From Ophiura sarsii (taxonomy: Eukaryota > Echinodermata > Ophiuroidea > Amphilepidida > Ophiuridae), in the NCBI GenBank assembly GCA_035610835.1, contig CM069454.1, positions 496,001 to 560,000 on the forward strand: a DNA stretch of 64,000 nucleotides, read 5' to 3'. Below, piece after piece: positions 6,075 to 54,232 of this stretch; the stretch's first letter is position 1; every line of letters begins with the position of its first letter. The translations under genes and the position numbers were made by a program. The notes beneath the pieces were generated by a model. It was not told the DNA's origin and made no database searches. It saw only the letters and a program-made list of their open reading frames with translations.

Positions 6075-7135
6075 AACATTTGAATAAGTATCTACTGTTG
6101 ATAGCGTTATATTAACTTACTAACTACTGCTGATAGCATACTGTTCAATCGTTATCTACTGCTGATAGCGTTATATCAACTTATTTTAAACTACTGCTGA
6201 TAGCATTATGTTCAATTTTTATCTACTGTTGATAGCGTTATATTAACTTACTATCTACTGCTGATAGCATAATATTCAATCGTTATCTACTGCTGATAGC
6301 GTTATATTAACTTACTAACTACTGCTGATAGCATAATGTTCAACTGTTATCTACTGTTGATAGCGTTATATTAACTTACTAACTACTGCTGATAGCATAA
6401 TGTTCAATCTTTATCTACTGCTGATAGCGTTATATTAACTTACTAACTACTGCTGATAGCATAATGTTCAATTGTTATCTACTGCTGATAGCGTTATATT
6501 AACTTACTAACTACTGCTGATTGCATACTATTCAATTGTTATATAGTGTTGATAACGTTATATTTTCTGCTATCTACTGCTACTGCTAACAGATTGCCGC
6601 ACTTGCCACTGATCGTCGTGCATGGAGAAATCTTGAAGTCGCCTGCAGAGTGATGATGACTGCTGATAGCATAATGTAATAATGTTATTTGAATTGTTAT
6701 CTACTGTTGATAGCGTTATATTAGCTTACTATCTACTGCTGATAGCATAATATTCAATTGTTATCTACTGCTGATAGCGTTATATGTTCTGCTATCTACT
6801 GATGATAGCATAATATTCAATTGTTATCTACTGCTGATAGCGTTATATTAGCTTACTATCTACTGCTGATAGCATAATATTCAATTGTTATCTACTGCTG
6901 ATAGCGTTATATGTTCTGCTATCTACTGATGATAGCATAATATTCAATTGTTATCTACTGCTGATAGCGTTATATTTTCTGCTATCTACTGATGATAGCA
7001 TAATATTCAATTGTTATCTACTGCTGATAGCGTCATATGTTCTGCTATCTACTGCTGATAGCAAAATGTTCAATTATTATCTACTGTTGATAGCTTTATA
7101 TTAACTTACTAACTACTGCTGATAGCATGATGTTC
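6075..7135. repeat. ~65-bp satellite built of two diverged ~32-bp half-units
   Basis: Tandem array alternating the half-units CTACTGCTGATAGCGTTATA and CTACTGCTGATAGCATAATG with AT-rich linkers, giving a higher-order period near 65 bp. It is broken by an unrelated GC-richer patch at about 6585-6665. Some units switch linker sequence (TTAACTTACTA versus TTCTGCTA), so subfamilies are interleaved. Confidence 0.9.
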
Positions 7136-8280
7136 AATGATGAAAGCAGCAACTAAATGCTCGACTAATTTGGGTGTTAAAGCATTTCAAAACAAAAATA
7201 ATGTTTCCAAAAATCAGTCTTGAGCTAATTTGTTTGCATATAATGCCAAGTAAAATTGTGCAAATTAGCTCATAGCATAAATTATTATTATTATTATAAT
7301 ATTTTTTGGGGGTGGGGGAGGGGGGGGGGGGGGGGTGGGGAGGAGTGGGGGTGGGGGTGCCTCCCCTTGCCCCCCTGTAGTGCCGCCACTGACCGCATGC
7401 AGTGTCAAATCTTTTAAAAGAGATACTGACAATTTATCTCTTTCCGCAGGTGTAATTTATTTGGTCAATTTCGGATGCAATGCACCCTTTTTAAAAACCC
7501 CAAATGAGTGCGTTTTTAATTCATGCTTTTTATTATTACATTGTATTAATTATCTTGATACGTACAGTGCAACAGAACATAAACTTCCAAATATTGAATT
7601 ATAAATATAGTGCCTCCTGATTGTTGTACAACGATGAACATTTCAATCCTAAGTATGTGTATCATATATAATTAAAACAGCTTTGTTTTAAAGTGCTATT
7701 TCATGTCCTTGTATGATTATCAGCATAGTTACATTTCTTATTAAACCTGATTTCGGATTGGCCAATACTTGATTATCCATACACGCTAATCCAACCAGCT
7801 ACTGCCTACTTCCTTTCATGGCCTTAACTATTTAAACATTTCTTTTTTATTTAGACTTAGTGCAGGCCTTTAACACGATACCTGTTTGTACAACCATGCA
7901 TGTCAGCACACCCCCACCTAAAGTAACATACACCATTATGACTGCACACTGGCGAATTGCATTTCAAATTTCATGTAGCGCGAATTTTAAACCACTGGTC
8001 CCTTAGCACGGGCATGTCCTTGAATATTCCTTCCATTGTGTGCGTGCATGGCTGCACAAGTATTAATAGACTTTTACCAAGTCTGTGTACAGTTGTATGA
8101 AATACCGTAGTGGTTACATGTGGTTTTTTCTCTTTTTAAATATACTAAATGTTTGGAGGACGATATTTTAAATACTTAAGGGATATTGAATTATCTGCTC
8201 AGACCATTCTTTTAAGCACATCTTTACCTTTAATTTGATACCATGCAAGTCTGGTTTGGATACACAGTATTACTTAATAA
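7136..8280. other. gene-free stretch with poly-G tract
   Basis: No gene recognised. It includes a small inverted repeat (GAGCTAATTTG near 7222 and CAAATTAGCTC near 7262), an ATT microsatellite at 7281-7297, and a G-rich tract at about 7310-7360 followed by TGCCGCCACTG, which resembles the right end of the hAT-like family seen elsewhere. Confidence 0.4.
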
Positions 8281-11903: not shown

Positions 11904-11975
11904 ATGCAGAATGTGATCAATAAAGCGAAGGCGGGAGCGTTAGGGGTAGCTGAATTTTTGACTCCGGTATTAAAG
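11904..11975 (+). CDS. ATG3: ATG3 exon 1 (aa 1-24)
   Basis: Starts at the ATG of CAAAATGCAG. It encodes the membrane-curvature-sensing amphipathic helix, ends TTAAAG, and is followed by donor GTAAGC (phase 0). Confidence 0.95.
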
Positions 11976-14900
11976 GTAAGCTTATTTTTAAAGAGACGAA
12001 TTCAGAAGACTTGCATGAGTACAGATTATGACATTGAAACGGGAAGATGTAAAGTCGAAAACGTTTAAATTAAGATCTTGGAGTGGCGATCTGATTTAGA
12101 GGCAATATCTTATATCGTACAGGCTTAATTACAACAAATTACACAGATGTTGTGCAATGTACATGCTTACATTTATAAATAAAATCTAATTTTATAGTCT
12201 AATTAATAGGCCCTAGGCTAGTATTATATTAATAAAAGTATGGCTATATCTTGCCTCACGTCCCGTACGGAATAAACCGTGTATAGTTACAACGTATTTT
12301 AATTGGTTTGAGCATGCGCACTTGAGGTACGGGACGTCTAGCAAGACATTGCCAAAAGTATTATAAGACTGATAATTTATCTTATTTATTTGAAGTTTTG
12401 AACAAACAAATTGACACATTTTTTTGTTCGTTCAAAACTGAATAACTGAATTGTGGAATAAATAATGTAAAGCTTTGTATTGTATTATTAATTGTGTTTA
12501 TTAAATTGACACATTTTTAAATTAAAATTTTGTTTATTAAATTATGAACATTTGGCCGCAACATGCCTGCATTAAATGAAATGGTTCGATTAGATCAAGT
12601 GTGTGCAACCTGCGGCCGGCCCGCCGGCCTCCAATCTGCGGCCCGTGAAGCAATCCCAAAATTCCAATTGATGCGGCCCGTTTTAATCGGAACTCCCTAG
12701 TAGGTTACACAAATGGCGGATTGATTTAGTTGTGTGCTTCCTTATAATAGTAGGGTGATGCACTACATATTAGTGAATAACTCAAGGCGTGATTGCGTGT
12801 TAAAATCCATGTATAAAATATGGTTTGCAGCAGCAACAGCAAGTAAAAAGAGGGAATTACACGAGGAGAAGCGGGTATTCAATTGATAGGATTATTACTT
12901 CATTGAACAAAACAGTGCATCTCTATGCTTCATTTGTATGTATGGTGTCTATTCCCTCCCCTATTACCCCTCCTCCAGACATGTTTTGGAATGTGTGACA
13001 ATCAAGCCGCCCGTGAATGGATCTCAAAATCACAATGAGGCCCAGGTGGTAGAAAAGGTTGCACATGCTTGTATTAGAATTAGATCGTTTGAATTGTAGA
13101 ATTCAGATACTTAGGAAGTTACGATCACATAAAGGTGCGTTGTAATTTTTTTCGAGATACCCTATACTATTTGCTACCGCTGCTGCCATTTAATGCAGAA
13201 GGCTGCATGTAATGCAACTTATTTTATCGTCGCTGTATATTAGAACATACATGTAGTTCAACTTTTCTATTCTTAAGGCCAAGTAACAACATCTCCCCCG
13301 GCACCGATTTTTGACGCCGCTCCAATATTGTTGTTATTTGTTATTTTCAAAAATTCCTTCAAAATTCCAAAAAAGTTCGAAAAAAAATCAAAAATCATAC
13401 TTGTTGTGCGTGAGTGTGTCCATCATTTTCAATTATATTTCAATGAAAAAGACGCGAGACATACTCGTTGGCATAGATAGTGATACGAATATCGAAACCA
13501 TTCTTGCAAAAAGCTTGTAATTTGGCTTCTGAAAAATAACAAAAAATCCAAAAATAACAAATAGCAAGGGCCACCCTCACTGATTTTTAAAAAAGTCCAG
13601 ACGAGAAACACATTATTTTTGTTACTTTTGCCTAATACCTTTATACCTGAATTTAATCAATGTTATCTTTTAAAAAATTATACTAAAATCTGCCCAGAAA
13701 ATGCAAAATAAATGAGAAAAAAAAGTATGAAAATCTTGTGAAAAATAAACAGCTGACAATCATGACCTGAGTGTTGAAATCTTCGATGGTAACCCTACAT
13801 GTAAATAATACACCTTCATCGCTCTATTTACAACTACAGTTGTATATGCCGCTTCCACGCACTTAACATTTTCCCGAACCAGCATAGGGAAAAAGGTCAC
13901 AGGAGACAATCTGCAACAACAAAAATGACCATTCATCGCACAGTGATCGCTACGCGCAAATCTGATTTCACATGGCAATGCTTTCTTTTGTTCTTTATTT
14001 AATTACTACATCGGTAAATCAAAATTAAAATAATCATCCTAATAATATTAATAACAAAATACTTTTATTTTCTCTCAGGAATCCAAATTTCGTGAAACAG
14101 GTGTGGTAACGCCAGAAGAATACATTGCAGCTGGTGATCACTTGGTCCATCATTGCCCAACATGGAAATGGTCAGAAGGCGATCCAACAAAGACTAAACC
14201 TTATCTTCCAAAGGAGAAACAATTCTTGGTAACAAAAAATGGTAAGTTTCTTTTCCTGCTTTTGACATCATTGCAACTTCAAACAATGTGATTTTATTGG
14301 GTATTTGTAATGCTACATTTTGCGGAAAACACAGTTTTAAATGAACACTTAATTCCAAAGATTTAGCAATTGAAAGGTATTCACAACAATAGAAAACATT
14401 TTTGACCCTTTGTTTGATAATCTCAAAATCACTATTGGCGACTTCCGCAGTCAGGAATTCTAAAATACTGGATACCACCCATACTATTAGTTATCCCCTG
14501 CATGTTCACACAATATGGAAAAATACCTATGGTTTGGCATGTGATATGGCACAAACCATAGGTATTTGTCCGTATTGTGTGAACATGCAGGGGATAACGA
14601 ATTTATCGTTTAGTCCCAATAAAAATTGTATTTAAACACTCGCGGAAAACTAAATGTCAAAATCTAGTTAGAGCAAGGCGCTGAATTCTCTTCCCTTCCT
14701 TACCTCCGTACTAAAATTCAACCCTTTAACAGGCTCTGCGCCATCCCCTCTGTCCATAAAATCATCGCGAAAAACATGTCTGGTTAGGTTATATGCAGAT
14801 CATTTATTTTTTGGCGTGGGTTAGATGTTTTTGCGGTATATTTCGGCTTCAGAATGTAACAGAAATCGACTCGGTTGCATTTAAATCATCCGCCCGGCAT

Positions 14901-17900
14901 TTTATTTGTTTATTTTACATGTCGTATTTTGAGCAACTCTTCCACACAGACGCAAAGCAATCGCTTTACACGTAATATCATTTCGCGCCATCTGGTAACG
15001 CGGTTAATCGACGATATGGAATATATCGTGTGGTTTGACTTGTTGTTTACACGATATGGATCAGATTTCATACGTGTTAACCAATGAGATTGAAGTATGT
15101 ATCACTTACTAAACGATAAATAAATGACCTGTCTCTTTTTCCTTTAAATGATAATTTGCAGTTGAACAGTGCCATCTACTTGTCCATGCTCTCCAACCAA
15201 TGGATGATGTATCACCAATGTACAAATTGTTTTCTGCGCATCTGCATGTTAATTTCACTCTGGTGTTTTCATACGCTGAAACATGATTTAATCTCTTAGA
15301 CAAACAGTGATAACTGATTTTTTCTTCCTCTTCTTGTTTTACATTGCGACGTATATCTACATAGTTCCTTGCTACAAAAGGTGTAAACAAATGGAATATC
15401 AAGATGATCATGAAGCTATTATAGAAGAAGATGATGAGGATGGGGGATGGGTAGATACGCATCATAATCTTGGTAAGAAACTAAACTGACTCGAGTAGTA
15501 AGATACTTCAATGTGATACACATGTATCCGTACCATGATCTTGGTAAGACAATCCCTTGGATATCGATAGTTTAGTCAGTTCAAAATTGGTGAGAATTAT
15601 GTGCTTTAATTTGATCTTTCCATGCACAAACGTAATCCAAGCGTACGCGGCATGCGCACGATTTTGGTGTGCGCACATATCATGCATAAAATGCCCTGTG
15701 TGCCATGTGTGCTTCATGCATGATGCTTCATGCGTGCCTCATCATGTGATTATATTAATTCGCTGCTGACATGCGAATTGCGGCAATTCTCATACATCCT
15801 CGTCCCCATGCCTCCTTCAGAACGTACAGATTGAAGTAGGCATGTTCAGCGCACCGTGGTTCGGAAGTCACATAGAGATGGGGGTCCTGTGTATCGGAAG
15901 AGCTGTACAAAATTACGTTAACAATGTCACAGACTCCTTCGTAAAGAGTAGGGGATCATCCCGGGTCTGTACTTGTACGCTCATAATATGTAAAACCCAC
16001 ATTGACCCAAGTGAGATTGGGGAACTGTTAAAAGGGTGATATTACAATCTTAATTGGTGTTTGCCTAGCCAGTAGCCACTTATATGAAGGGAAATGATTC
16101 TGACAATTTCCTAATGACAGTGAAATATTGGCAATAGCGATTTGAGAATTTGTTGTAAGTGGCTCTATAATAATTATTATTATTATTAAGCTAGCCAATT
16201 TGGAATTAACTAAACTTTACAGGTTTTTGCTAATTAAAGATTGTCTGCAGGGATCTGCTGTCCAACAAAAAGGTACATTTGGGTTTGGGGTGTAAATCTA
16301 CACTGAAATGAAATGTAAAATTGTTATACATACATACATACATAACATTTCTTATAAGGCGCAATATCCAAATACATGATCAAGGCGCAACAAAACAAAA
16401 TTATAGCAATGAATGAGAATATGAATATAACAAAATACCAATACAATCAATACAGATATGATTTTAAGAGTTTCTTAAAGATTGCAGTAGAACCGGCATC
16501 TCTAATATGGTGTGGAAGTGAGTTCCATAGTGACGGACCTGCAACGGAAAAGGCTCTTTCACCTATACGTTTCCTACTGGAAGGTATTGAGAGTAGAGTC
16601 CTGTCCATTGCAGATCTAGTCACCGGGCCTATTGATCTAGTATCCGCACAGCATTAGCTTGAGTGAATCATGTGTAGAGTTATAAGTTAGTTTAAAAAGA
16701 CACAGCAAGTTTGACACTTGTAGCTCAATGTTTTTGTTAGATGAAGTATACATGTTATATTCTTGTCACATTTAGTAGAAATTTTGTGAGGTATGACCCA
16801 TTCATATTTCATGTATTTCCTATCTGCCCATAATAAAACTTGGCATTATTGAAGAAATTCAGTAAGGGAACAGTTTTATTTATACTTGATAAAATTATCG
16901 AGACTGTACGTGTATATATATGATATATCCAGCTTGAAAATTTTATCGAGCCTGATTTGAAAATATATGGAGCCCCGTATTGAGCAGCAAGGGATTATTT
17001 ATCGAGCAGAGTACAACTTGTCTAAATTTGACAAAGATACGTAAAGTGGTACGGTATGTATATAAACATTATTATATTATCCTGGCGTTTTTTTCTTAAA
17101 TACCCTAGGACATTAGTGACTACTGGTATGGCACTCGTCAGGCCTGGAAAAAATGTTGATTTCCCAGGAAGCTAACCTAAATTTCCCTTCAAAATGGAAA
17201 ATGTCCCACCATTTCTCATGTATTTCTTTATGGAAGAGCCAAATTTCCCTCCAAATTCCAAAAATTTCCAGCAAGGAGCTTCCCAAATTGCCCCTTTTTT
17301 CCAGGCCTGGCACTCGTATCAAGCTCGATATTGAGCCCCAACGTCTATTTTATCGATTTTCAAAATATTGAGCCCAAAAGATAGCGTGCCCGATACAGTC
17401 TCGATAAATTGAGTATAAATGGAACTGTTTATGATCTATCCATAGATTCAGCTGCAGGTGGTTTAAGTGAATCTGTAACAGAAATGAAGATTGGTTCTAA
17501 AGGGGGCGCATCTGCAACTGTACCAGCAGAAGACGACGACGAAGATGAAGATGATGATGAAGAACCTGCAGATATGGAAGGTAAATAACTAATAGAATGT
17601 CATAGTAACAGACCAGCAGAAGATGATGATGATGATGAAGAACCTGCAGATATGGAAGGTAAGTAACTAATAGAATGTCATAGTTATAGGGGTAGGCCAT
17701 AGTAACAGACCAGCAGAAGATGACGACGAAGATGATGATGATGAAGAACCTGCAGATATGGAAGGTAAGTAGCTAATAGAATGTCATAGTAACAGACCAG
17801 CAGAAGATGACGACGAAGATGATGATGATGAAGAAGAACCTGCAGATATGGAAGGTAAGAAGATGATGATGATGATGAAGAACCTGCAGATATGGAAGGT

Positions 17901-20900
17901 AAGAAGATGATGATGATGATGAAGAACCTGCAGATATGGAAGGTAAGAAGATGATGATGATGATGAAGAACCTGCAGATATATGGAAGGTAAATAACTAA
18001 TAGAATGTCATAGTAACAGACCAGCAGAAGATGACGACGAAGATGATGATGATGATGAAGAACCTGCAGATATGGAAGGTAAGTAACTAATAGAATGTCA
18101 TAGTTATAGGGGTAGGCCATAGTAACAGACCAGCAGAAGATGACGACGAAGATGATGATGATGAAGAACCTGCAGATATGGAAGGTAAGAAGATGATGAT
18201 GATGATGAAGAACCTGCAGATATGGAAGGTAAGAAGAAGATGATGATGATGATGAAGAACCTGCAGATATGGAAGGTAAGTAGCTAATAGAATGTCATAG
18301 TGATAGGGGTAGGCCATAGTAACATACCAGCAGTGGCTTAGCTAAGAGGGGGGGGGGGGGGGGGGGGGCGGCAGATGCAGCCCTACTGTGCACCTGCCCA
18401 TTCTCTGGATGTAGTTTGTAGGTCGTAGGCATTATGACAACTTACATGGACCATTTTTCGAGCGCGTTTATGTAAAAAATGCCCTAACCCCCCCTCTCAA
18501 ATCTTTTGAGCTGACTGCCAACAAATTTGGGGCAACCTTTTTAGGAAAATTTCAGAAATCTTGCCCCCCCCCCCCCTGAAAAAATCCTAGCTATGCCACT
18601 GCATACTAGGAGGGGTAGGACATGATTTATGTCAAAAGTAACGGGGAAAACCGCATACACTATATACAGGCATGATACTTTGTAGATTAAAATTGGAAAG
18701 TAGATATTTTTAACTCTCAAATGTAGATATTTTTGCATTTATTTAGCCCAATTTTAGGCAATTTAGCACAAAAGTCTGCTGTTTTCTAATATTTCAGGGA
18801 ATTTTTGATTATTTCACCTGATATGAGTATCATGCCTGTTTATAGAACATTAGCATTTTACCTGAAAGCTGTGGCATGGCCAAATTTGTTTACTTTGATT
18901 TGTTATCAATTTTGACTCTATATCCTGTCATGGAGAATATAATATTGTGTCGGTTTCATGTCTAGGTTTCAGTAAGGTCCAACAATGTTGAAAATCCTTA
19001 AAATTGTCAGTTTCCTCCATATGAAAATATGCAGGCCTCCTTTATTAATGAGATCAACTCATTTTGTTCATGTTTTCCTACAAATCCAGCACTTATTTTG
19101 CGACATTTTAACACTTTCCACGATGCAGGTGTCTGCAGTCGACATTCCAAAATGTCACAAAATGTTTCAAATTTATTGAACTTCATCGCCATAAAGATTA
19201 TTTGGAATCACCATATGAAATGCATTTAAATAAGTACAAAAATGCCTAGTATTAGTTACGTTATCCTAGAGATAGACATTGACATTAGGGAAATCAAATC
19301 AATCACAATATACTTTTTTAACAGCACTCCGTGACATTCAACCCATTTTGACCAAATTTGTTGTTCTTCCTTACAGCTTATGAGGAAAGTGGAATGCTTG
19401 AAGCTGAAGATGATGTAAGTTTGTTATAAGACGGTGAAAAATAAAACCATGTTGTACGGGTAAATGGACCTCTCAGGTCGGGTCGGTCAGTCAGGCTTTT
19501 TTCTCCTTCAGTGTGCAATATATCCAGTATCGCATAGCGAAATGCTACACAATTTTGAAGAATTGCTAATCAATTTCCCAATTGTATCGCATACAGATGT
19601 GATGAAATGCTACGCAATATTTGGAATTGCTACACAAAAAATAGTATATGAAGAGGTATTTTGCAAAAGGGCTATGGTGCATTTTTTCAAAAAATGAGTT
19701 TGATATAGAAATGTATAGGGAAAAATCATATGTTTCAAGGAAACAAAGTCATTTTTTTCAAAAAGACCTACATCTCATTGTAAAATTCAATGGCTGTTTA
19801 CAATGAGATGTAGGTATTTTTGAAAAAAATGACTTTATTTCCTTGAAACATGATTGTGACCTATACATTTCAATATCAAACTTATTTATTTGAAATGATT
19901 AAAATAAATGATTTTTTGTGTGTGGTATTTTTTCTTTATGTACGAACAGATGGAGTTTTGTTGCAAAAGGGCCTACATCCAAATTTTCAAAAAATGTAAA
20001 CATGATTTAAAAAAAAATTAAAACTAGCACATTTAAAATTTATTTCAATTTCAATTAGTATGTACTGTACCTCTTTCATAATCCATTCAGTTTTTCAATT
20101 GCTCAACTTGAATATTTAGAAACAGTTTTTTGACTTTTTCTCAATAAGAGCCAAAGTGGATGTAGGCCCTTTTGCAAAATACCTCTTCATATATTGCACA
20201 CTGTTCTCCTTGTTTTCCTTCTATATTCCCTTGAAAATGACCGTAAACAAATAATCAAAACAATTTGTAAACATTTTGCCATTTTTGCCAAGTAAAAAAG
20301 AAATTGGGGTTGGTACTCATTTGTCCGTGAACATTTTTGTCACCAATTTCATTGAATTGAGGATAAAACTAGCAAGGGGTAGAAATGTGTGCACATTTTA
20401 GGGGGGGGGGGGGGGGGGGAGAGAATTGGCCCTGCCGGCGGTCCTAGAATCAGATTGTTTGTCTACAGTTTATACCAGCTGCAAAGTAAAGTAGATTCGT
20501 AATCTAAATAAAAATGGAACTTACATCTACAGAATAAGAAAGATGATCAGATTGAGGTCCTCTTGTGTGCTAAGATCTCACTAAACATTATTTCTTCCAT
20601 TTTGACAACAGGCAACTCTAGACACGTCCAAGTTACCAAAAGATGGGGATCAGGGAGCCAGCGGGGGAGCAGCTAGTTATGAAAGTGGAATTCTACAAAC
20701 GAGAACTTATGATTTAAATATAACATATGATAAATACTACCAGACACCTAGGTTGTGGCTGTATGGTTACGATGAGGTGAGAACTTATGATTTAAATATA
20801 ACATATGATAAATACTACCAGACACCTAGGTTGTGGCTGTATGGTTACGATGAGGTGAGAACTTATGATTTAAATATAACATATGATAAATACTACCAGA

Positions 20901-23900
20901 CACCTAGGTTGTGGCTGTATGGTTACGATGAGGTGAGAACTTATGATTTAAATATAACATATGATAAATACTACCAGACACCTAGGTTGTGGCTGTATGG
21001 TTACGATGAGGTGAGAACTTATGATTTAAATATAACATATGATAAATACTACCAGACACCTAGGTTGTGGCTGTATGGTTACGATGAGGTGAGAACTTAT
21101 GATTTAAATATAACATATGATAAATACTACCAGACACCTAGGTTGTGGCTGTATGGTTACGATGAGGTGAGAACTTATGATTTAAATATAACATATGATA
21201 AATACTACCAGACACCTAGGTTGTGGCTGTATGGTTACGATGAGGTGAGAACTTATGATTTAAATATAACATATGATAAATACTACCAGACGCCTAGGTT
21301 GTGGCTGTATGGTTACGATGAGGTGAGAACTTATGATTTAAATATAACATATGATAAATACTACCAGACGCCTAGGTTGTGGCTGTATGGTTACGATGAG
21401 GTGAGAACTTATGATTTAAATATAACATATGATAAATACTACCAGACGCCTAGGTTGTGGCTGTATGGTTACGATGAGGTGAGAACTTATGATTTAAATA
21501 TAACATATGATAAATACTACCAGACGCCTAGGTTGTGGCTGTATGGTTACGATGAGGTGAGAACTTATGATTTAAATATAACATATGATAAATACTACCA
21601 GACACCTAGGTTGTGGCTGTATGGTTACGATGAGGTGAGAACTTATGATTTAAATATAACATATGATAAATACTACCAGACGCCTAGGTTGTGGCTGTAT
21701 GGTTACGATGAGGTGAGAACTTATGATTTAAATATAACATATGATAAATACTACCAGACGCCTAGGTTGTGGCTGTATGGTTACGATGAGGTGAGAACTT
21801 ATGATTTAAATATAACATATGATAAATACTACCAGACGCCTAGGTTGTGGCTGTATGGTTACGATGAGGTAAGGTGCAAACTGTTTGTAGATGAACCATT
21901 GACCCTAAAATTAAGGAACATTAAATTAGGAGTGGGCTATAGAGGGTCATAGTTTCAGATCATGCTTGCTACATGATTTGTTGATGACTTTAAACTTACT
22001 GACAACATTTTCAAAAATAAATTGAAAAAAATGCAAAATCCAGGGTGCCCCGGCCAAAACCCACAAAAAATCAGCCAATTTGGAAAAACAGTATTTTGAT
22101 CATAAATCAATCATTTGTGGTCCAATCAATTTGATTTTGATGGCAATACCCACATTTGTGTGGACATGGAATAATCTTATGCAACTTTTATCGCATGACG
22201 ATGTTTTGTTTTCCTGACAATTGCATTTTTATTGAGAAAAAAAACCTTTCGCATCGTAGCATCTCAGATTCTAATGTTGAAATATGATAGAAGTTACATT
22301 TTAGGCATTTCCTGAAGATCTGAGTAAAATACCATTTGTTGTTTTGAAGCTACACCATTTTGAACATCTTTGAATTGTCTCCTTTGAAACACACACTAAT
22401 GAAAGTTCGTTGACACCTGTACTATCCAATGAAGTTGTTTTAACGCGCTCTTGTGATTTTATAATGGATGCCACGGTAATATGAAATGAGGTAACATGCT
22501 CACATCTTCAGACAACGTTTCTCGACACACTCTTAACATATTTCATGTATTCAAATTCATTTTTATTAATGTGATAGCTACTTTTCTGCAAAGCGCCCTC
22601 ACAGTCCAAATTTGACCACAATCAGCTATTACAAGAAAACGAAGGGATTATATGAGATGAAACCAGCATAGAATAACATCTTGTACCCTTAAACATGGGT
22701 ATTGCCACCAAAATGAAAAAAAAAATAGACCAAAAATGACTGAGTTATGATCAAAAGACTGTTTTTTCCATAATGGCCGACTTGTTGTGGTTTTTTGGCC
22801 GGGGCACTCTGGATTTCACATTTTGTTGTTGTTGAAAATGTTGTCCGTACGCATAAAGTCATCACAAAATCATGTAACAAGCGTGATCTGAAACTATGAG
22901 CTAAAAATGACCCTCTATAGCCCACTCCTAATTAAATCAACATTTTTCAAGGCCTGGACCCAATTCTGATGTCACTTAACGAACCTAAAATTCATGAACA
23001 TTGCCCCTTTTGTCAACACAAAGTAGAAATAAGTCCCTGTGATTTTCAGTTGTTGCTACAACTTAGTTAGCAGGTTTAATAGACGTGCGAAAATGGTTGT
23101 AATGTTTGCCCCTTGGGGTTAGTGATGACAGAGTCAGCCCATTGATACAAGGTCTGGATCACACTGTTTGTTAAGAGTCCCAATGACCCAATTCTGATGT
23201 CACGTACCGGCTCTAAAATTCACGAACATTGAACCAATGACCCAATTCTGATATCACATAACGGCCCTAAAATTAACGAACGTTGAAGCAACGATCCAAT
23301 TCTGATGTCACATACCGGTGTCACATTTGCTGACCCGGTGGTTTCAGTCAACATTGACTTTGGGATTTGATATGCGTAAACATTTCCAAAATAGGGAAAA
23401 AGGGGAGGGGGGTTCATATTTATGTCCGCGGATTATGTCCTTGATTTCCCAAAATTACCCTAACAATGGAGTTGATTTATTGCATTATGCAAGCCTAATT
23501 ATGTATGTTAACACATTATTGTCATTATTACTATAGAATCGTAAACCTCTAACGGTAGATATGATGTATGAAGATATCAGCCAAGATCATGTCAAGAAGA
23601 CTGTAACCGTGGAAACCCATCCCCATCTGCCCGTCACCATGTGTTCTGTGCATCCATGCAGGTAAAGTATGCCTCATTCATATTATTACTCAGTACTCTG
23701 TGGGCATATGTGGCGCAGCGGATAGAGCACTGGATCCATAAACCAAAGGTTGTGTGTTCGAGTCTCGTTGTGGTCAACATGTTGTGCTCTTGAGTAAGGC
23801 ACTTTTCCGCAATTACTTCTCTCCACCCAGATGTAAAACGGGTAGCTGTTCGGGAATAATCACAATCTAACACTGTACACTCAAAACGTCTTAATTTGGA

Positions 23901-26900
23901 CAAAACGTCTAAAAGTTGTTGCCCTAGATGAATGGGGGATATTCTTTTGTGTTTCATGGAATATTATATTTTCAAGCATCCAAATACGAGGGAGTTTTTT
24001 ATCCACTGGTGGACAAGTTTTTGCTCCTGATGTTTTCCAAGTTTTGCACAGTAGTATAGGACCATGACTGGTCCATGAGCTATTTTTGGTCAAAAAAGTA
24101 AAAGTAGCTCACTTATTTGGAAGCTTGATTATCTTTGTTTTTGATATTTAGAGAATAAAAGTATTGTTTTAGACCAAGCATGTGCAACCTTTTCTACCAC
24201 ACGGGCCGCATTGTGATTTTGAGATCTATTCACGGGCCGCAGTGATTGTCAAACATTCCAAAACACATCCGAAGGAGGAGTAATAGGGAGAGGGGAAGTC
24301 TATTGCTCATGGGATACCCGCTTCTATTCATGTAATTTCATCTTTTTACTCGCTGTTGCTGCTGCAGCGCCATTTTAACCAGGAATTTTATCACCAATTA
24401 CGCCTTGAGTTATATTTCCTTAATGCAGCGCGTCACCCTACTAATTATAAGGGAGCACACCACTAAATCAATCCACCATTTGTGTAAAACTAGGGAGTTC
24501 CGGTTAAAACGGGCCGCATCAGTGGGAATTTTAGGATTGCTTCGCGGGCCGCAGGTTAAAGGTCGGCGGGCCGCATGTGGCCCGCGGGCTGCAGGTTGCA
24601 CACGCTTGTTTTAGACTGTACCCACATTATATTGGCAGACATAAATGTAGATGTTAGTATAAGTCAATAATGCTGCAGACATTGTTCTATTACCGAATAC
24701 AAGTGAAACACTTCCTGGTGATAGCATGTCTTATCTGGTGTGTAAGGTAAACAAATAATGGTAAAAATAATAAAAGGGCTGCACGAGTGGTACAATTGAA
24801 ATTGAGATTAACACTGAATGTACTACGTAGGAAGTAATTCCTTGACCAATTTGTACTTGAGGCTAGTTTGTGAGGCTTCAAATCAAGGCTAGGAGTGTGC
24901 AACTGCCAGCAGTTGACCACACATGCTCTTGCATGGCCCTCAAAGCAATGCCAAATTGAGAATAAATCAATCAAGTTTTACTTTTTTAATTATAATCCGA
25001 AACCATAATGGGAGAGTCCTTTAACATTGGTAATCAAAAGAAACCATAATGGGAGAGTCCTTTAACATTGGTAATCAAATGAATCCATAATGGGAGAGTC
25101 TTTTAACATTGGTAATCAAAAGAAACCATAATGGGAGAGTCTTTTAACATTGGTAATCAAAAATGTGAGTAAATATAGGATACTGATTTAATATCTAAAG
25201 TGCTCAACAAAAGAAAGTTGTACACTTTGTTTAGGTCATTTAAAGTAACTTTCGATTATTCTTTTACCACACAGGCTAGATAGACATTTGGATGAATCTT
25301 TTAGGCACATTTTGATACCAAACATAACACCTAACAACGAAGATAACCCATAATTAGCACCGTTTATAGAAAATTAGTCACATTTTCAATACACTACGCG
25401 GAAGAAAACACCAATTGTTAACAAGCACATAATGCCCTTTATGTTCGGAATCAAATATCCCGCTCACTAAGTGTACGCCCATTGCAGGGTATTGTACACG
25501 GCTGCACAGTGTGATCGATTGCCCGCCGGCCAATCCTGGTTAATAACAGTGTCACACACGGGGTGAACCTCGCACACACCCATTTTCCTCCCGTGTAGTA
25601 ATTGAAAATGTGACTTTTGAAAAGTGAATAATTTTCTATAAATAGCGCTAATCATGATTTATCTTTGTTGCTAATTGTTATGTTTGGTATCAAAATGTGC
25701 CTAAAAGATTCATCCAAATGTCTATCTAGCCTGTTTGGTAAAGAAACAATCAAAAGTTACTTTAATTGATCTAAACAAAGTGTACGACTTTCTTTTGTTG
25801 AGCACTTTAGGTTAAACATGTGGACCCTGGACTATAGATACATGTATGTTATCTCTTTGTCACCATTATGGATCTCACATCTGGGATACAATATTGAACT
25901 ACCTAGCTACGCGAATGCTAAGTAGGCTATTAACACTTGCCACCACGTTTGCAGACGACAGTTGCATATTTTCCACAAAATATATTAAAAATGTAACAAT
26001 TATTGAATTTCATCACCATATTTCATGAGAAATACATTGAAATAAGTACACACATGCCCAGTATTGGTTCAGTAATCCTTGAGATAGACTTTGAAAATTG
26101 GGAAAGGTTTCTTAAAAATCTGTTTTGTATTTATAGTAAAACTAATAGCCACATGGAAAGTGTTAAGCAAGCAAAACAAAGGATATGACCAATACAGTAT
26201 CAAGGTTATGATTTCATTTGACTTGCGCCAACACTGATCATCACTTTTAAATGGGATAGAATGCCAATTCAAAGAACGAGTTGGGTGTGGAAATGTAAAA
26301 TAAAGCAAAAAGGCCAACAAAATACCATTTCAATATTCTAATAATATGACGTTCTTTAACTTTGTCCACAGACATGCCGATGTTATGAAGAAGATAATTA
26401 ACACTGTTGCCGATGGCGGTGGAGAATTAGGGGTTCATTTGTATCCTTATCAATGTGTAGTAATAGGCCAACAAATAATTGTTGTGTTGCCCTTAAAGGC
26501 ATATTATGTGATCTTTTCCAGAGAGCGCCCTCTATTCATGATTTTTTTTAGAAAGTAGATTTTCTTGCAGATTTACATTTCCGATCATAAATCATACATA
26601 CATACCAAGTTACAGAGCGATACGATTCCTAATTACCTCAAAATCATGGTTTTAGAGTGAATTTAGAGTGAAAAATATAAACTGTCGGGATTCCGACAGT
26701 TTATTTTCACTCTAAAACCATGATTTTGAAGTAATTAAGAATCGTATCGCCCTGTAACTTGGAATGTATGCATGATTTATGATCAGAAATGTAAATCTGC
26801 AAAAAAATCTGCTTTCTATTTTTTTTTCGATGTTGAGGGCGTTCCCTGGAAAGATCACATAATATACCTTTAAGTGCTAAAAATTTAAAACTGGGTCGGT

Positions 26901-27404
26901 CGGTCGTAAATCTTTTTCTTTTTTTGGCTGAAAAATATATGGTTTATGTCGAGACAAAATTGGTATAGGCCAATATGTCAATTTAACTAATGTTTCTTGT
27001 GTGATAATAGTCTAAAAACCTTTAAAGTAAAGCTAACTTATTCATTTCAAGCAAGAAATAGTAACATTTAGACACTTTAAGGACAGATTTGATAAAGTTT
27101 GTGTCATTTTAAAGCTTAGAATTGCCCAGAGAGCGCACATAATACACTCAAAATTGACTTCACCAAAGTCCTTCTTTTGATATTCTGCATCATATAGTTT
27201 AAACATTATTTTAAATACATACACTGTACACAGTGCCAAATTTAGAGATATATCCACCAAATCTTGAGCATATATGAGTTTGCAAAATGTATTTACCTTA
27301 ACATATGATGTTTTCTTCCCAGATATCTATTGATATTTCTCAAATTTGTGCAAGCCGTTATTCCAACTATAGAATATGATTACACGAGGCATTTCACCAT
27401 GTGA
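11904..27404 (+). CDS. ATG3: ATG3, E2-like ubiquitin-like-conjugating enzyme (autophagy), 9 coding exons
   Basis: ATG3 receives ATG8/LC3/GABARAP from the E1 enzyme ATG7 as a Cys thioester and transfers it to phosphatidylethanolamine on the phagophore. Coding exons: 11904-11975, 14079-14241, 15365-15472, 17446-17580, 19377-19414, 20612-20776 (or a later repeated donor), 23537-23661, 26372-26440 and 27323-27404. The sum is 957 nt, 318 aa plus stop; human ATG3 is 314 aa. All nine junction phases agree. The N-terminal amphipathic helix is [18 protein letters not shown]. The acidic disordered segment is in exons 3-5. The E2 core carries [20 protein letters not shown], and the catalytic Cys268 lies in [14 protein letters not shown]. 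The C-terminus is [14 protein letters not shown]. All introns are GT-AG. The oddities are tandem arrays at the ends of exons 4 and 6 and a U12-type last intron. Confidence 0.97.
12235..12362. mobile_element. 128-bp MITE in ATG3 intron 1
   Basis: Inverted repeats: ATATCTTGCCTCACGTCCCG at the left versus CGGGACGTCTAGCAAGACAT at the right, with matching AAAAGTA outer sequence. Confidence 0.75.
12596..13071. mobile_element. hAT-like non-autonomous element in ATG3 intron 1
   Basis: Ends CAAGTGTGTGCAACCT / AGGTTGCACATGCTTG, with CGGCCCG-rich subterminal blocks. The flanks GATTAGAT and TATTAGAA are a degraded 8-bp duplication. It is the same family as the copy at 24175-24608, which has a perfect target duplication. 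Confidence 0.85.
14079..14241 (+). CDS. ATG3: ATG3 exon 2 (aa 25-79)
   Basis: Acceptor TCTCTCAG and donor G|GTAAG. It encodes [15 protein letters not shown] through [14 protein letters not shown] to KQFLVTKN, a segment nearly identical across animal ATG3 proteins. Confidence 0.96.
14488..14602. repeat. 115-bp hairpin element in ATG3 intron 2
   Basis: GTTATCCCCTGCATGTTCAC at the left is inverted at GTGAACATGCAGGGGATAAC at the right. A second inner complement (ACCTATGGTTT / AAACCATAGGT) makes an almost complete foldback. Confidence 0.85.
15365..15472 (+). CDS. ATG3: ATG3 exon 3 (aa 79-115)
   Basis: Acceptor ATCTACATAG and donor G|GTAAG. It encodes [20 protein letters not shown] and the acidic [16 protein letters not shown] stretch that follows the conserved Cys pair. 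Confidence 0.96.
15830..16130 (+). repeat. SINE-like interspersed repeat, partial
   Basis: Shares the GGTTCGGAAGT.AC, CATCGGAAGAGC-like and CTTTCGTAAAGAGTAGGGGATCATCCC-type blocks with 52695-52806, and the GGGAACTGTTA..GATATTACAATCT-type block with 52575-52605. The blocks are in a different order, so the copies are truncated or rearranged. Confidence 0.65.
16326..16640 (-). pseudogene. non-LTR retrotransposon RT C-terminal fragment
   Basis: On the minus strand the frame reads [20 protein letters not shown] and then [19 protein letters not shown] before a stop. This is the characteristic end of CR1/Jockey-type RT proteins (..RAF...LWNSLP..IR...F...LK). A 3'-UTR-like tail and a CATA microsatellite (16326-16343) follow. 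It is a 5'-truncated insertion within ATG3 intron 3. Confidence 0.8.
17446..17580 (+). CDS. ATG3: ATG3 exon 4 (aa 115-160), acidic region
   Basis: Acceptor TCTATCCATAG and donor GAAG|GTAAAT. It encodes [20 protein letters not shown] and then an Asp/Glu-rich tract ending EEPADME. Direct read-through of the donor stops after two codons (GGT AAA TAA). The exon end is the first member of the downstream tandem array. Confidence 0.93.
17510..18320 (+). repeat. tandem array of the ATG3 exon 4/intron 4 junction (11 copies)
   Basis: The motif CCTGCAGATATGGAAG followed by GTAAA/GTAAG occurs 11 times (first in exon 4, last near 18272); one copy has an extra TA. Five long units also carry ACCAG directly before CAGAAGATGA. 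Using those acceptors gives potential cassette exons 17617-17658, 17714-17764, 17801-17854, 18025-18078 and 18134-18184 (42, 51, 54, 54 and 51 nt). All are multiples of three and in the ATG3 frame, encoding more acidic sequence. The acceptors lack a good polypyrimidine tract. Confidence 0.93.
18331..18601. mobile_element. hAT-like MITE at the end of the exon 4 array
   Basis: Ends CAGTGGCTTAGCTA / TAGCTATGCCACTG, with flanking 8-bp near-duplicates CATACCAG (18323-18330) and CATACTAG (18602-18609). It contains poly-G and poly-C tracts. It lies immediately downstream of the last repeat unit. Confidence 0.85.
19108..19290. mobile_element. TTAA-type MITE, right end unclear (ATG3 intron 4)
   Basis: Starts TTAACACTTTCCACGATGCA and shares its body (GCATTTAAATAAGTACAAA, ATGCCTAGTATT) with 25930-26166, 30853-31093, 44405-44640 and 61055-61265. 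The right terminus cannot be placed. Confidence 0.7.
19377..19414 (+). CDS. ATG3: ATG3 exon 5 (aa 160-172), 38-nt microexon
   Basis: Acceptor CCTTACAG and donor GAT|GTAAGT. It encodes [12 protein letters not shown] after the split Ala codon and matches the YEESGLLETDEAT region of vertebrate ATG3. Confidence 0.95.
19645..20195. mobile_element. inverted-repeat element with nested hairpin (ATG3 intron 5)
   Basis: The outer arms are TATATGAAGAGGTATTTTGC and GCAAAATACCTCTTCATATA. Inside, 19735-19856 forms a second strong hairpin (CCTACATCTCATTGTAAA near 19768 and TTTACAATGAGATGTAGG near 19796). No coding frame is seen. Confidence 0.85.
20612..20776 (+). CDS. ATG3: ATG3 exon 6 (aa 173-227), minimal form
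   Basis: Acceptor TTTTGACAACAG. It encodes [19 protein letters not shown] through [18 protein letters not shown] to RLWLYGYDE, ending GATGAG at the first of 15 GT donors. Using the first donor gives the normal-length protein. The last donor (21868|GTAAGG) would add 364 in-frame residues. Confidence 0.9.
20701..21870 (+). repeat. 15 x 78-bp tandem repeat of ATG3 exon 6 end plus donor GT
   Basis: Exactly 15 units of 78 bp (26 codons), GAGAACTTATGA... to ...TACGATGAGGT. Each unit includes the first two intron bases. Every internal joint reads GAG|GTGAGA, a good 5' splice site, and the last reads GAG|GTAAGG. The array is open in the ATG3 frame throughout. Units 1-7 and 12 carry CAGACACCT; units 8-11 and 13-15 carry CAGACGCCT. 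I see no other differences. The unit encodes beta-strand sequence of the E2 core ([20 protein letters not shown]). Confidence 0.97.
21921..22937. mobile_element. ~1-kb inverted-repeat element in ATG3 intron 6
   Basis: Ends ATTAGGAGTGGGCTATAGAG and CTCTATAGCCCACTCCTAAT (minus spacing changes), with TTAA at or beside both termini. Homology continues inward: AGTTTCAGATCATGCTTG versus the complement of CAAGCGTGATCTGAAACT. No transposase frame is recognised. Confidence 0.8.
22960..23330. repeat. degenerate ~60-bp tandem repeat
   Basis: CCAATTCTGATGTCAC and its variants recur near 22968, 23188, 23242 and 23298, each followed by a CTAAAATT.A.GAAC block. It looks like a decayed minisatellite in ATG3 intron 6. 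Confidence 0.7.
23537..23661 (+). CDS. ATG3: ATG3 exon 7 (aa 228-269), catalytic cysteine
   Basis: Acceptor TACTATAG and donor AG|GTAAAG. It encodes [20 protein letters not shown] through [14 protein letters not shown]. The HPC cysteine (residue 268) is the ATG8-accepting active site. Confidence 0.97.
23705..23885 (+). repeat. tRNA-derived SINE-like element (ATG3 intron 7)
   Basis: RNA polymerase III promoter boxes are visible: an A-box-like TGGCGCAGCGGA at 23710 and a B-box-like GGTTGTGTGTTCGAGTCTC near 23749. A GAGTAAGGCACTTTT-type conserved central stretch, common in metazoan SINEs, follows. No intact tRNA fold is present. Confidence 0.75.
24175..24608. mobile_element. hAT-like non-autonomous element (ATG3 intron 7)
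   Basis: Ends CAAGCATGTGCAACCT / AGGTTGCACACGCTTG (one base apart), with a perfect 8-bp target duplication TTTTAGAC at 24167-24174 and 24609-24616. Subterminal ACGGGCCGCA repeats are typical of Charlie-like hAT elements. It is related to 12596-13071. Confidence 0.92.
24998..25165. repeat. 40-bp minisatellite, 4 copies
   Basis: The unit AACCATAATGGGAGAGTC continues CTTTAACATTGGTAATCAAA and is repeated four times with one or two substitutions. Confidence 0.92.
25198..25807. mobile_element. Tc1/mariner-like MITE, second copy (ATG3 intron 7)
   Basis: Ends AAGTGCTCAACAAAAGAAAG / CTTTCTTTTGTTGAGCACTT, flanked by TA at 25196-25197 and 25808-25809. It is the same family as 1008-1561. Confidence 0.88.
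25930..26166. mobile_element. TTAA-type (piggyBac-like) MITE, ~237 bp
   Basis: Bounded by TTAA on both sides: TTAACACTTGCCACCACG at the left, CATGGAAAGTGTTAA at the right. The body matches 30853-31093. It sits in ATG3 intron 7. Confidence 0.8.
26372..26440 (+). CDS. ATG3: ATG3 exon 8 (aa 269-292)
   Basis: Acceptor TTTGTCCACAG. It encodes [20 protein letters not shown] and VH, ending CATTT before the U12-type donor GTATCCTTAT. Confidence 0.96.
26441..27322 (+). other. U12-type intron of ATG3 (intron 8)
   Basis: The 5' splice site GTATCCTTAT matches the minor-spliceosome consensus GTATCCTTT closely. TTACCTTAAC at 27293-27302 matches the U12 branch-site consensus TTCCTTAAC and lies about 20 nt before the AG at 27321-27322. 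Splicing here restores the invariant [11 protein letters not shown] sequence. The intron also contains a TTAA-type MITE (26493-26873). Confidence 0.82.
26493..26873. mobile_element. TTAA-flanked palindromic MITE (piggyBac-like), 381 bp
   Basis: Arms TTAAAGGCATATTATGTGAT and ATCACATAATATACCTTTAA, complementary for about 170 bp each with a short centre (AAACTGTCGG.ATTCCGACAGTTT). TTAA flanks both sides. Related split copies are at 48212 and 50143. Confidence 0.9.
27323..27404 (+). CDS. ATG3: ATG3 exon 9 (C-terminus, aa 292-318)
   Basis: Acceptor TTCTTCCCAG. It encodes [18 protein letters not shown], then DYTRHFTM and the stop TGA. The C-terminus is essentially identical to vertebrate ATG3. Confidence 0.97.
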
Positions 27405-36727: not shown

Positions 36728-37330
36728 TTACTGGGGGGGACTCACTATTAGTCTATACTATGATACTTTAATCCTACTTGGTAATTTAATTTTGATCTTA
36801 CTAGGGGACTCACTATTAGTCTATACTATGATACTTTAATCCTACTTGGTAATTTAATTTTGATCTTACTAGGGGACTCACTATTAGTCTATAGTATAAT
36901 ACTTTAATCCTACTTGGTAATTTAATTTTGATCTTACTAGGGGACTCACTATTAGTCTATATTATGATACTTAATCCTACTTGGTAATTTAATTTTGATC
37001 TTACTAGGGGACTCACTATCAGTCTATATATATTATGATACTTTAATCCTACTTGGTAATTTAATTTTGATCTTACTAGGGGACTCACTATTAGTCTATA
37101 CTATGATACTTTAATCCTACTTGGTAATTTAATTTTAATCTTACTAGGGGACTCACTATTAGTCTATATTATGATACTTTAATCCTACTTGGTAATTTAA
37201 TTTTGACCTTACTAGGGGACTCACTATTAGTCTATATTATGATACTTTAATCCTACTTGGTAATTTAATTTTGATCGTACTAGGGGACTCACTATCAGTC
37301 TATATGATGATACTTTAATCCTAACTTGAT
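36728..37330. repeat. 68-bp satellite, ~9 copies (duplication copy A)
   Basis: Unit: CTTACTAGGGGACTCACTAT, then TAGTCTATA.TATGATACTT, TAATCCTACTTGGTAATTTA and ATTTTGAT. It is highly regular. Confidence 0.93.
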
Positions 37331-37683
37331 AAAACAACCATGTTTAGGTTGGTTGGTTACTTGGTACTTTCAAGACAGTGAATGTTTCATTTCAGGCTAA
37401 CACGAATTGTATTCATAATTATTGTGTCAAATGTAGGGGTATAACAAAGTCCAGGTTTGCCTGCCAACTTTAGGGGGTGAGCGTAGGAGGTGTTGCTGAA
37501 CTAAACTAGGGTTCTTTGGTATCCCATATATAGATCACTTTTCCCATAATGATAAGCGTTTCAGGGTTCCTACGTACCTATCTGTTAAAACAACGAGAGG
37601 GGGAATTCTTCCAATATATGTATGCCTATAAGATTATAACATTGAAAAGATTTGAAGAACTCAAGCCAATGTTTTATTTATTG

Positions 37684-38094
37684 TATTGCTTGTTTGTTTG
37701 TTTGTTTGTTTGTTTGTTTGTTTGTTTGTTTGTTTGTTTGTTTGTTTGTTGGTTAGTTGGTTGGTTGGTTGGTTGGTTGGTTGGTTGGTTGGTTGGTTGG
37801 TTGGTTGGTTGGTTGGTTGGTTGGTTGGTTGGTTGGCTGGTTGGTTGGTTGGTCGTTGGTTGGTTGGTTGGTTGGTTGGTTGGTTGGTTGGTTGGTTGGT
37901 TGGTTGGTTGGTTGGTTGGTTGGTTGGTTGGTTGGTTGGTTGGTTGGTTGGTTGGTTGGTTGGTTGGTTGGTTGGTTGGTTGGTTGGTTGGTTGGTTGGT
38001 TGGTTGGTTGGTTGGTTGGATGGTTGGTTGGTTGGTTGGTTGGTTGGTTGGTTGGTTGGTTGATTGGTTGGTGTTCCAGCGAGGGGAATTCCCC

Positions 38095-38132
<38 letters not shown>
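37684..38132. repeat. (TTTG)n/(TTGG)n microsatellite and poly-C tract
   Basis: 37684-37750 is TTTG repeats, about 37750-38070 is TTGG repeats, and 38093-38132 is almost pure C. The counterpart in copy B (54587-54700) is much shorter, so this is a copy-A expansion. Confidence 0.95.
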
Positions 38133-39797: not shown

Positions 39798-42700
39798 TCA
39801 CGCATTAACAACAGCATTATCAGTGTTTCGTTTTTGTACATAATCATATATTGCTGTTGCTAAAGAATATAGAAATGGATTGATAGCAGAATTAATGGGC
39901 AGTACAAACGTTACAATCCATGTATAGGTGAAAGGTGATACTGTAGTACCCCCACTCTGTACAACGATAGACAATATGATGATAGGTAACCAGCACATCA
40001 TATCAGTAAGGACAATAACGCTTATCTTAATAGCCATTTTTAGTTCCTCCTTTTGAGTTTGATTTCGCCCTGCTTGTTTTGCTGTTTGTCGCGCTGTGAT
40101 GAATATACCGATGTAGCAACACGTTATTCCCACCATGCATATCAAATTGATAATGCAAAATAACGCTATACCAAAATACATACCTGGTCTAGTGCCAACT
40201 ACTGTTTTAAAATGGATAATAATGTATTTTTCATCTTCTAAGCCAATCAGACGGGAACGATCCTTAAATATGTTGCTTCTAGAAAGCGGGAGTCCAGTAC
40301 ACACCTCAGATACATCATACAAATCAGGATCAATCTCTGGCAAAATGGTTGAAATAATACTCAATATTACCGCGAAACACCAGAGGCCTGCAATGACTAA
40401 CCTAACTGAGCTTGTGCCTAATCTCTTAGTGCTAAATGTATATTTGATGCCCATATACCTGTCTACGCTTAGCAGAGTAATGAAGAAGACAGACGCTTCG
40501 CTTGATAAGATAGATAGCGCCCCAGCTACTTTACATGTAATGCTTGATCTCCATAATTCAGAGGGAAAATAGTTAAGGTAGAAATAATACATATCTGCTG
40601 AAGCTATCAACAGCATATATATACCCATGAACAGATCTGAGATTGACAGATTTGAGATTATTAAATATTGTACTTTGCTAGTATCGTTACGGTGAATGTA
40701 ACGGTAATACAAAACGCACGTGTTACTGATAATTGCAAACATTCCTAAAATCCACATACATGATCTTTGAATCGGATTCGAAAGTAATCTGCCACATGTC
40801 AGAAATTGAGAACGTGGAATATTAGCATTACATGTTGCTGCTTCTATAAAGCAACAAGTAGCAGCATAGTCGACAAAAATATTTACTCTTTTTCTGAAAT
40901 GTCTAAAAGACTTGACATTTACCATATGCAGCTTGTTTTGTCTTAGATCAACAGTGTCAAGATAAGGCATTGGGTTATTCAAAAAATAAAATCCCGAATC
41001 AAAATCATTGAACTTATTGTTAGATAAATCGAGATAATCTAAGTGTTTCATGTTTTGAAATAGCCCACGCTGGAAATTCGACAGCCTATTTGTGGAAAGC
41101 GAAATATAGCCCAGATTGTTGTACTGCACTGATGAGTTCAGCTGAAATAGAACTAGATCGTTGTGACTAAAATCAATGTAATTGAGTTCGCTATTTGACA
41201 TTAACACCAATGAATCAACAATTGTAATTTTATTGTTGGACAGATATAGCAATGCTAAGTTGGTTAGTCCGTCTAATGAATGCGAGTGAAGTGTCTCAAT
41301 TTTATTGTTTGATAGATCTAACACTGTCAGACTGAAAAGGGCTCCAAACTGTCGAGAATATAACTTTACAATTTCATTATGGGACAGATAAAGATATCTC
41401 AGGCTTTTAAGCGTGCCAAAAAGCTGTGAGTCTAGCTCAATAATATAATTCCTGGTCATATTAAACTTGATCATGTTTGTAAGCGCATTAAATGATTGGG
41501 GGTGTAGCTTCATAATTGTATTGCCTGCTAGTGAAAACGTTTTTAAATTGTTAAGACATGCAAATGACTGAGGGGACAGCTCCACAATTTTATTGTTGGA
41601 CAGATCTAACTGGACTAGTATTTTCAGCTCTTCAAACTGCTGGGAATGTACATCAACAATATCATTGTTCTTTAAATCTAAATCAACAAGGTTACTAACC
41701 CCTTTAAATTGCAGTTTGTACAGCTTCACAATATTATTGTTAAACAAATATAACGATTTCAGGGCGTTAAGCGACTCAAACTGCTGCACGTATATCACTA
41801 CAATTTTATTTTTAGATAAGTCTAAAGTTATCAAATTAGACAAAGTATGAAACTGCTCCGCATGTAGCTCCTCAATATTATTGTTGGATAGCACTAAATG
41901 CATCAGGTTTGTAAGCGCATTAAACAGCAATGGGTGTAGTTCCGCAATGTTATTGTCAGATAAGTTTAGCTCCCAAAGATGTGGGAGTGCGTTAAACAAC
42001 TCTAGGTGTAGTTCAATGATATTATTGCTGGATATATATAGCCGCACTAGGTTTGTAAGCGTTTCAAACTGTTGCGGATGTAGCTCTACAATATTATTGT
42101 TTGACATATCTAACTGTTTCAGGCTTGAAAGCGCTTTAAACAGCTGTGGGTGTAGTACGTTAATAGTATTGTTGAACATAATGAGGTTTCTCAAGTTTGA
42201 AAGGGCTTCAAACTGTCCCGGGTGCAATTCTACAATGGTATTGTAAGACAAATCTAGCTTTTTCAGGTTTATAAATGCTTGAAACTGCTCGGGGTGTAGC
42301 TCTTCAATGTTATTTCTGGACAGATCTAATTGTTCAATATTTGAAATATTTTCAAACTGCTGTTTGTGTAATTCCGAAACAATATTGTCGGACAGCTGCA
42401 ACACCGACAGTTTTGTGAGCGTACGAAACTGATGTGGTTTGATATCCTCAATAATATTGCAATCCAAAAATAATAATTGCAGATGTACAAGTGCTTCAAA
42501 CTGTTGTTGGTGCAACTCTACAATATTATTTCCGGACAGGCGTAACAATTTCAGGTTTGTAAGCGCATCAAACTGCTGTGGGTGGAGTTTTGCAATAAAA
42601 TTGTCGGCCAAATCTAACCAATATAAGGTACTCCAAGATAAACCTGAAAATGCCTGAGGCTCTATTCCATGAAGGCCAGTATAACTCCAAGATAATGATC

Positions 42701-53582: not shown

Positions 53583-54232
53583 TTGATCTTACTAGGGGAC
53601 ACACTATTAGTCTCATAGTTAGGACTCATAGTTTACATAGTATTATGGAGTTCTATTTTTACACAGATTGTATATTTTTTACATAATTTGTGTAATTTTT
53701 TTACATAGTGTTTTCTGTGTGTATTAGTCTATATTATGATACTTTAATCCTACTTGGTAATTTAATTTTGATCTTACTAGGTGACTCACTATTAGTCTAT
53801 ACTATGATACTGTAATCCTACTTGGTAATTTAATTTTGATCTTACTAGGGGACTCACTATTAGTCTATATTATGATACTTTAATCCTACTTGGTAATTTA
53901 ATTTTTATCTTACTAGGGGACTCACTATTAGTCTATATTATGATACTTTAATCCTACTTGGTAATTTAATTTTGATCTTACTAGGGGACTCACGATTAGT
54001 CTATATTATGATACTTTAATCCTACTTGGTAATTTAATTTTGATCTTACTAGGGGACTCACTATTAGTCTATATTATGATTCTTAAATCCTACTTGGTAA
54101 TTTAATTTTGATCTTACTAGGGGACTCACTATTAGTCTATACTATGATACTTTAATCCTACTTGGTAATTTAATTTTGATCTTACTAGGGGACTCACTAC
54201 TAGTGTATATTATGATACTTTAATCCTAACTT
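53583..54232. repeat. 68-bp satellite (copy B) with a ~110-bp insertion
   Basis: Same unit as 36728-37330. The first unit is interrupted at about 53617-53725 by sequence resembling the interior of the 46810 palindromic element (TATGGAGTTCTAT...TTTACACA). Confidence 0.88.

Follow-up and report, generated by a model that had tools for sequence, protein, structure and literature searches.

Fifteen donor-carrying copies of a coding segment at the end of ATG3 exon 6 in Ophiura sarsii: a probably young and nearly silent tandem array

Results

The ATG3 gene of Ophiura sarsii, in the stretch of 64,000 nucleotides analysed here (GenBank assembly GCA_035610835.1, contig CM069454.1, positions 496,001 to 560,000 of the forward strand; henceforth 'the window', in which position 1 is the first letter), carries at the end of its exon 6 a 78-bp unit that is repeated head to tail fifteen times without insertions or deletions and that brings its own 5' splice site with every copy. 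We consider it probable (about 0.62) that this is a young array resembling a variable number tandem repeat (VNTR), tolerated and nearly silent, in which splicing from the first donor would yield normal ATG3, with possible minor longer isoforms. Direct comparison of the letters confirmed, one by one, the unit as given by the sequence-only reading that preceded this analysis: it consists of the last 76 bp of exon 6 and the GT of intron 6, in 15 copies with one variable site. Tandem Repeats Finder (TRF) reported a period of 78, 15.0 copies and a 99% match. The sole variable site is unit position 46, where units 1-7 and 12 have A and units 8-11 and 13-15 have G, a synonymous difference within a Thr codon. 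By inspection, fifteen copies this close to identity are beyond chance. The same reading had placed GAG/GTGAGA (the slash denotes a splice border) at every joint, which is true of joints 1-14 but not of joint 15, where the sequence is GAG/GTAAGG; since this fifteenth site is continuous with the intron, we take it as the native donor. AG/GT is present at 15 of the 15 unit borders, and the unit length is a multiple of three that keeps the frame in phase 0, both of which are features of the dual-specific arrays of the UBC type considered below. Inspection by eye of the flanks of the array revealed no microhomology.

The gene that contains the array looks orthologous and intact. Joining nine exons between positions 11904 and 27404 gave a complete ATG3 of 318 amino acids; each of the 8 introns has GT-AG borders, the phases agree, and the exon 7 acceptor falls at 23536/23537, as in the sequence-only reading. 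The protein matched the Pfam profile PF03987 over residues 38-312 (E 1e-64; 218.5 bits against a cut-off of 24.4), is similar to its relatives over its full length, including the region of the HPC motif, and keeps HPCRHA, the Cys of which we take to be the catalytic Cys of ATG3. Its best database matches were P0001 and P0002, followed by echinoderms and a hemichordate, and solved ATG3 structures were also found as sequence matches. Identity to P0001 was 87% in the search and 92% in the multiple alignment, and identity to the ten other aligned relatives was 72-79%. A pseudogene was rejected as the simplest reading, since neither the frame nor any of the nine exons or 8 GT-AG borders is disrupted. 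Two of the introns have features of their own. About 1 kb of intron 6 (21920-22937) has imperfect inverted repeats at both ends (31 bp at 97%, then 121 columns at 82%) and resembles a miniature inverted-repeat transposable element or other DNA element. Intron 8 (26441-27322) looks U12-type, with the donor GTATCCTTA and a branch-site match, TACCTTAAC, to 8 of 9 positions of the consensus. Human ATG3 has also been described with a minor intron (PMC12332006).

Every donor in the array is in frame, as the unit comprises 26 codons and the end of exon 6 is in phase 0. The array forms one open frame, from which products of 318+26n amino acids (n=0-14) can be derived, and both the phase and this ladder, as foreseen in the sequence-only reading, were borne out by exon joining and by enumeration of splicing routes. 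Routes restricted to the joints, used as donors and optionally as acceptors, gave exactly 15 products of 318 to 682 amino acids in steps of 26, and 120 in-frame products resulted when the internal acceptor CAG/ACA was also allowed. Full retention of intron 6 leads to a stop 27 residues past unit 15. Pairing with the 5' end of U1 gave a duplex of -9.7 kcal/mol for the 14 new donors, close to the -10.1 kcal/mol of the native site at the end of the array; values for the other seven native donors of ATG3 ran from -9.5 to -1.3 kcal/mol, the last value being that of the U12-type site. Among the 3,749 GT dinucleotides of the + strand, just 0.8% (about 29) match or exceed the new donors in pairing strength, and the array itself accounts for 15 of them. 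The sequence of the joints thereby argues for a function as donors, and the AG/GT motif alone for a possible function as acceptors.

A second donor-carrying array is found at the end of exon 4. It is messier than the first, with intron-like and exon-like pieces in alternation and spacings of 44, 46, 47, 78, 90 and 106 bp, and all 11 of its donors are AG/GT. Reading through the first of them meets an immediate stop (GGT AAA TAA, within nine bases). With the upstream part kept whole, only the first of the 11 donors yields an in-frame exon free of stops, whereas the other 10 give exons that contain one, and five segments from a CAG to a donor (39-51 nt) would be in-frame small exons. If the gene works, exon 4 must therefore be spliced via donor 1 or an equivalent route, which supports use of the first donor in exon 6 as well. 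The junctions of the exon 4 duplication share ACCAGCAG with exon and intron, which suggests microhomology at this array.

Comparison with related species had been proposed as a check on the exon 6 array, and all 11 aligned proteins contain one unit. None of 253 proteins that were fetched, among them 133 ATG3, contained the unit core YD[KR]YYQTPR twice. With a query of seven units, in a search that scored the 7,991 candidates sharing most words, no repeat-bearing ATG3 was found among the best 120 of 3,362 matches, as judged by lengths of 300-417 amino acids and query coverage of at most 51%. In a weak model of P0001 (mean predicted local distance difference test (pLDDT) score 52.7 overall, 63-79 in the blocks of the unit) the unit lies on two strands (residues 197-205 and 210-218), and its end falls in the loop that precedes a helix, where extra units would insert. 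The model thus agrees with the earlier assignment of the unit to a beta-sheet as far as the two strands go, and we take these strands to belong to the E2 core beta-sheet. The positions of all features of the gene and its arrays are given in Table 1.

Table 1. Positions in the window of the ATG3 exons, the two donor-carrying arrays and their splice sites.
Feature	Position	Strand	Evidence	Remarks
Exon 6 array, 15 x 78 bp	20701..21870	+	Sequence comparison, Tandem Repeats Finder
14 extra units (1,092 bp)	20777..21868	+		Intronic with the first donor; coding, 14 x 26 aa, with the last
First donor, GAG/GTGAGA	20774..20782	+		13 identical donors follow at 78-bp steps, last exon bases 20854 ... 21790
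Fifteenth donor, taken as native, GAG/GTAAGG	21866..21874	+		Last exon base 21868
Second donor-carrying array, end of exon 4, 11 x TATGGAAG/GTAA	17541..18280	+	Several TRF rows merged	44-106 bp apart
ACCAGCAG, exonic, one of two short homologies flanking the exon 4 duplication	17522..17529	+		The other, intronic, at 18326-18333
ATG3 coding part, exons 1-5	11904-11975, 14079-14241, 15365-15472, 17446-17580, 19377-19414	+	Exon joining, phases, GT-AG borders, relatives, Pfam PF03987
ATG3 coding part, exons 6-9	20612-20776, 23537-23661, 26372-26440, 27323-27404	+	Exon joining, phases, GT-AG borders, relatives, Pfam PF03987
Exon 6, normal extent	20612..20776	+	Exon joining	Ends at the first array donor
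Exon 7 acceptor	23522..23536	+	Exon joining

Elsewhere in the window, two similar open frames of 1,245 and 1,243 codons (39798-43535 and 56380-60111, - strand) each combine leucine-rich repeats with a rhodopsin-type seven-helix part, and this receptor part has many relatives, some of them in Amphiura filiformis at 44-45%. Since one array of a 68-bp repeat family lies near each receptor gene (36736-37332 and 53722-54237), a segmental duplication may account for the entire block. Two further open frames on the - strand (62061-62972 and 63096-63911) have matches to separate parts of the profile PF00078 (reverse transcriptase) and are probably pieces of one retroelement. The window also contains a nearly pure GTTG tetranucleotide repeat of 381 bp (37692-38072) followed by a 42-bp run of C (38091-38132), and about 1 kb of layered repeats (6089-7138) with units of 32, 63 and 127-128 bp that form a higher-order structure.

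Discussion

The exon 6 array probably started with a duplication of the 78-bp segment that spans the border of exon 6 and intron 6, the junction of which would have joined the GT of the intron to the GAGA of the exon and so built the strong new donor GAG/GTGAGA. Joining of the first donor to the acceptor of exon 7 would then discard the other 14 units and produce the normal ATG3 of 318 amino acids. Because each unit carries its own donor and first-donor splicing would drop all the rest, such an array could grow almost neutrally, and because the joints are AG/GT and the unit is a whole number of codons (26), splicing from a later donor, or removal of units from joint to joint, would still yield in-frame ATG3 with n extra copies, which makes a low-level ladder of isoforms plausible. 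We infer such donor choice, near neutrality and low-level isoforms from the anatomy of the array. If mutations arise at an assumed 1e-8 per site, the one variable site among the 1,170 bp of the array implies an age near 85,000 generations, with 480,000 as the approximate upper bound, and the true age would be higher under gene conversion; in view of this low divergence, the number of units likely varies between animals. The sequence-only reading had already proposed that first-donor splicing silences the array, and the sequence basis of that idea (unit, phase, donor count, size of the ladder, intact gene) holds, but it had overlooked the acceptor potential of AG/GT and the array in exon 4.

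Several observations weigh against a silent array spliced from its first donor. The first donor defines an exon of 165 nt that ends 2,760 nt from the acceptor, and the last donor one of 1,257 nt that ends 1,668 nt away; the last donor is closer to the acceptor by 1,092 nt and is slightly stronger. Exon definition favours short exons and proximity favours the last donor, so that the two disagree here. The position of the two arrays over donors is also less telling than it might seem. After 58 TRF rows were merged by hand, the window contained 32 tandem arrays, low-complexity ones included, and since these cover 12.8% of it, chance alone should fairly often place arrays over donors: when the 32 arrays were placed at random, at least two of the eight donors were covered in 24% of trials, or in 27% when distinct arrays were counted. 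Two donor-overlapping arrays were therefore rejected as proof of a special process (P=0.24). None of the 8 ATG3 acceptors is overlapped by an array, and the features that stand out are the copy number, the uniformity and the rebuilding of a strong donor at each joint. Finally, the single unit in all aligned relatives, which speaks for the proposed reading, is seen in proteins, and these cannot show arrays in their genes; the lack of a repeat-bearing form in the top 120 of 3,362 matches is weak evidence for an organism that is possibly unannotated.

A bolder version of the same idea, which we regard as doubtful, is that a hypervariable donor array sets an isoform ladder: the number of units would differ between animals, splicing would pick among up to 15 donors or excise units, and ATG3 with 0-14 extra beta-hairpins would be made. 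More generally, the ends of exons in this genome would then be safe harbours for donor-carrying arrays, as the exon 4 array hints. Unlikely too is intronization by dual-specific sites, in which GT-AG introns of 78n nt would be removed between AG/GT joints, as in UBC. The motif is present at every joint and the resulting ladder of proteins would be identical to that from donor choice, so that selection on the protein cannot separate the two routes, but the acceptor side of the joints is poor: they contain 7 pyrimidines in 16 positions, whereas the 8 native acceptors have 9-14, and 74% of the AG dinucleotides in the window equal or surpass the joints.

We consider it very unlikely that the array is a damaging allele, rare or heterozygous in one animal, in which the long exon or competition between donors impairs ATG3; the array does look very young, but its first donor is exceeded in strength by no native ATG3 donor except the last one of the array. 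It is likewise quite improbable that the ladder is functional, with donors 2-15 used meaningfully and longer ATG3 having an effect such as altered E2 activity. Every product of the joints is indeed in frame, and a piece of four units on its own was predicted to form regularly stacked beta structure, with pLDDT of 67-88 across the repeat blocks. The insert, however, would sit beside strongly conserved residues, no repeat-bearing form occurred among the matches and the 133 fetched ATG3 proteins described above, and the units are too uniform to reveal selection. AlphaFold 2 has moreover been reported to give such beta structure for perfect repeats of random sequence (PMC11795689), and because of this bias the model of the four units was rejected as evidence of a function; the piece matched no solved structure at E<=0.001. 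Least probable of all is an assembly artefact that inflated or invented the copy number, since the A and G variants lie in blocks (units 1-7, 8-11, 12 and 13-15), the array has zero indels and the window holds many other long arrays of varied structure.

The array amounts to a natural experiment on donor choice, in which 14 identical 5' splice sites and one native site stand at 78-nt steps before one acceptor, and junction counts there would measure the effects of exon length and intron proximity directly. It also suggests a rule, namely that tandem duplications of coding sequence which carry a donor are shielded from selection and may persist and seed new introns or isoforms. A similar argument has been made for repeats with AG/GT sites (PMC10809524), and the exon 4 array makes the donor version of the rule testable. 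We recognised no report of a donor array in ATG3 in a literature search made mostly at the level of titles and abstracts, with thin coverage of the subscription literature.

Arrays of AG/GT in repeat genes have a precedent in human polyubiquitin UBC and its dual-specific splice sites (PMC10809524), which, together with intron gain through tandem AGGT duplication, comes closest to the ATG3 array. In UBC and in ATG3 alike, AG/GT recurs at a fixed in-frame spacing in a tandem coding repeat, and splicing from joint to joint alters only the number of units. In contrast, the units of UBC are complete ubiquitin monomers and use of its sites is shown by a ladder in reverse transcription PCR (PMC10809524), whereas the unit of ATG3 is a piece of one enzyme domain, its array is known from sequence alone and, unlike that of UBC, it was founded on an existing exon-intron border. 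Intron gain by tandem duplication has also been described (PMC3443670, PMC4974935, PMC3629103). In the AGGT model of Rogers (PMC3443670; ATP2A1 is an example, PMC4974935), as in ATG3, a duplicated AGGT segment supplies both GT and AG and the extra copy can be removed with the protein unchanged. That model in its original form starts from a wholly exonic segment, and an AGGT inside an exon gives rise to a new intron (PMC3443670), whereas the ATG3 unit crosses the exon-intron border and copies the native donor; since it starts from an existing donor, the ATG3 array would lengthen an old intron and not create one. The gained introns of the fission yeast genes SPOG_01682 and SOCG_00815 resemble the ATG3 array in being made of several tandem units with a length that is a multiple of three, but these yeast units are of 24 nt and are described as exonic segments (PMC3629103); the proto-splice site is given as AGGC in PMC3629103 and as AGGT in PMC4974935. 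The intron gain in the potato RNA-dependent RNA polymerase gene, like the ATG3 array, involves a tandem duplication across an intron-exon border together with its splice signals, but differs in comprising two copies, on the acceptor side, and one new intron supported by reads (PMC4974935). By analogy with these systems, the ATG3 array appears to share the logic of known intron gain by tandem duplication, and what sets it apart is the copying of an existing donor.

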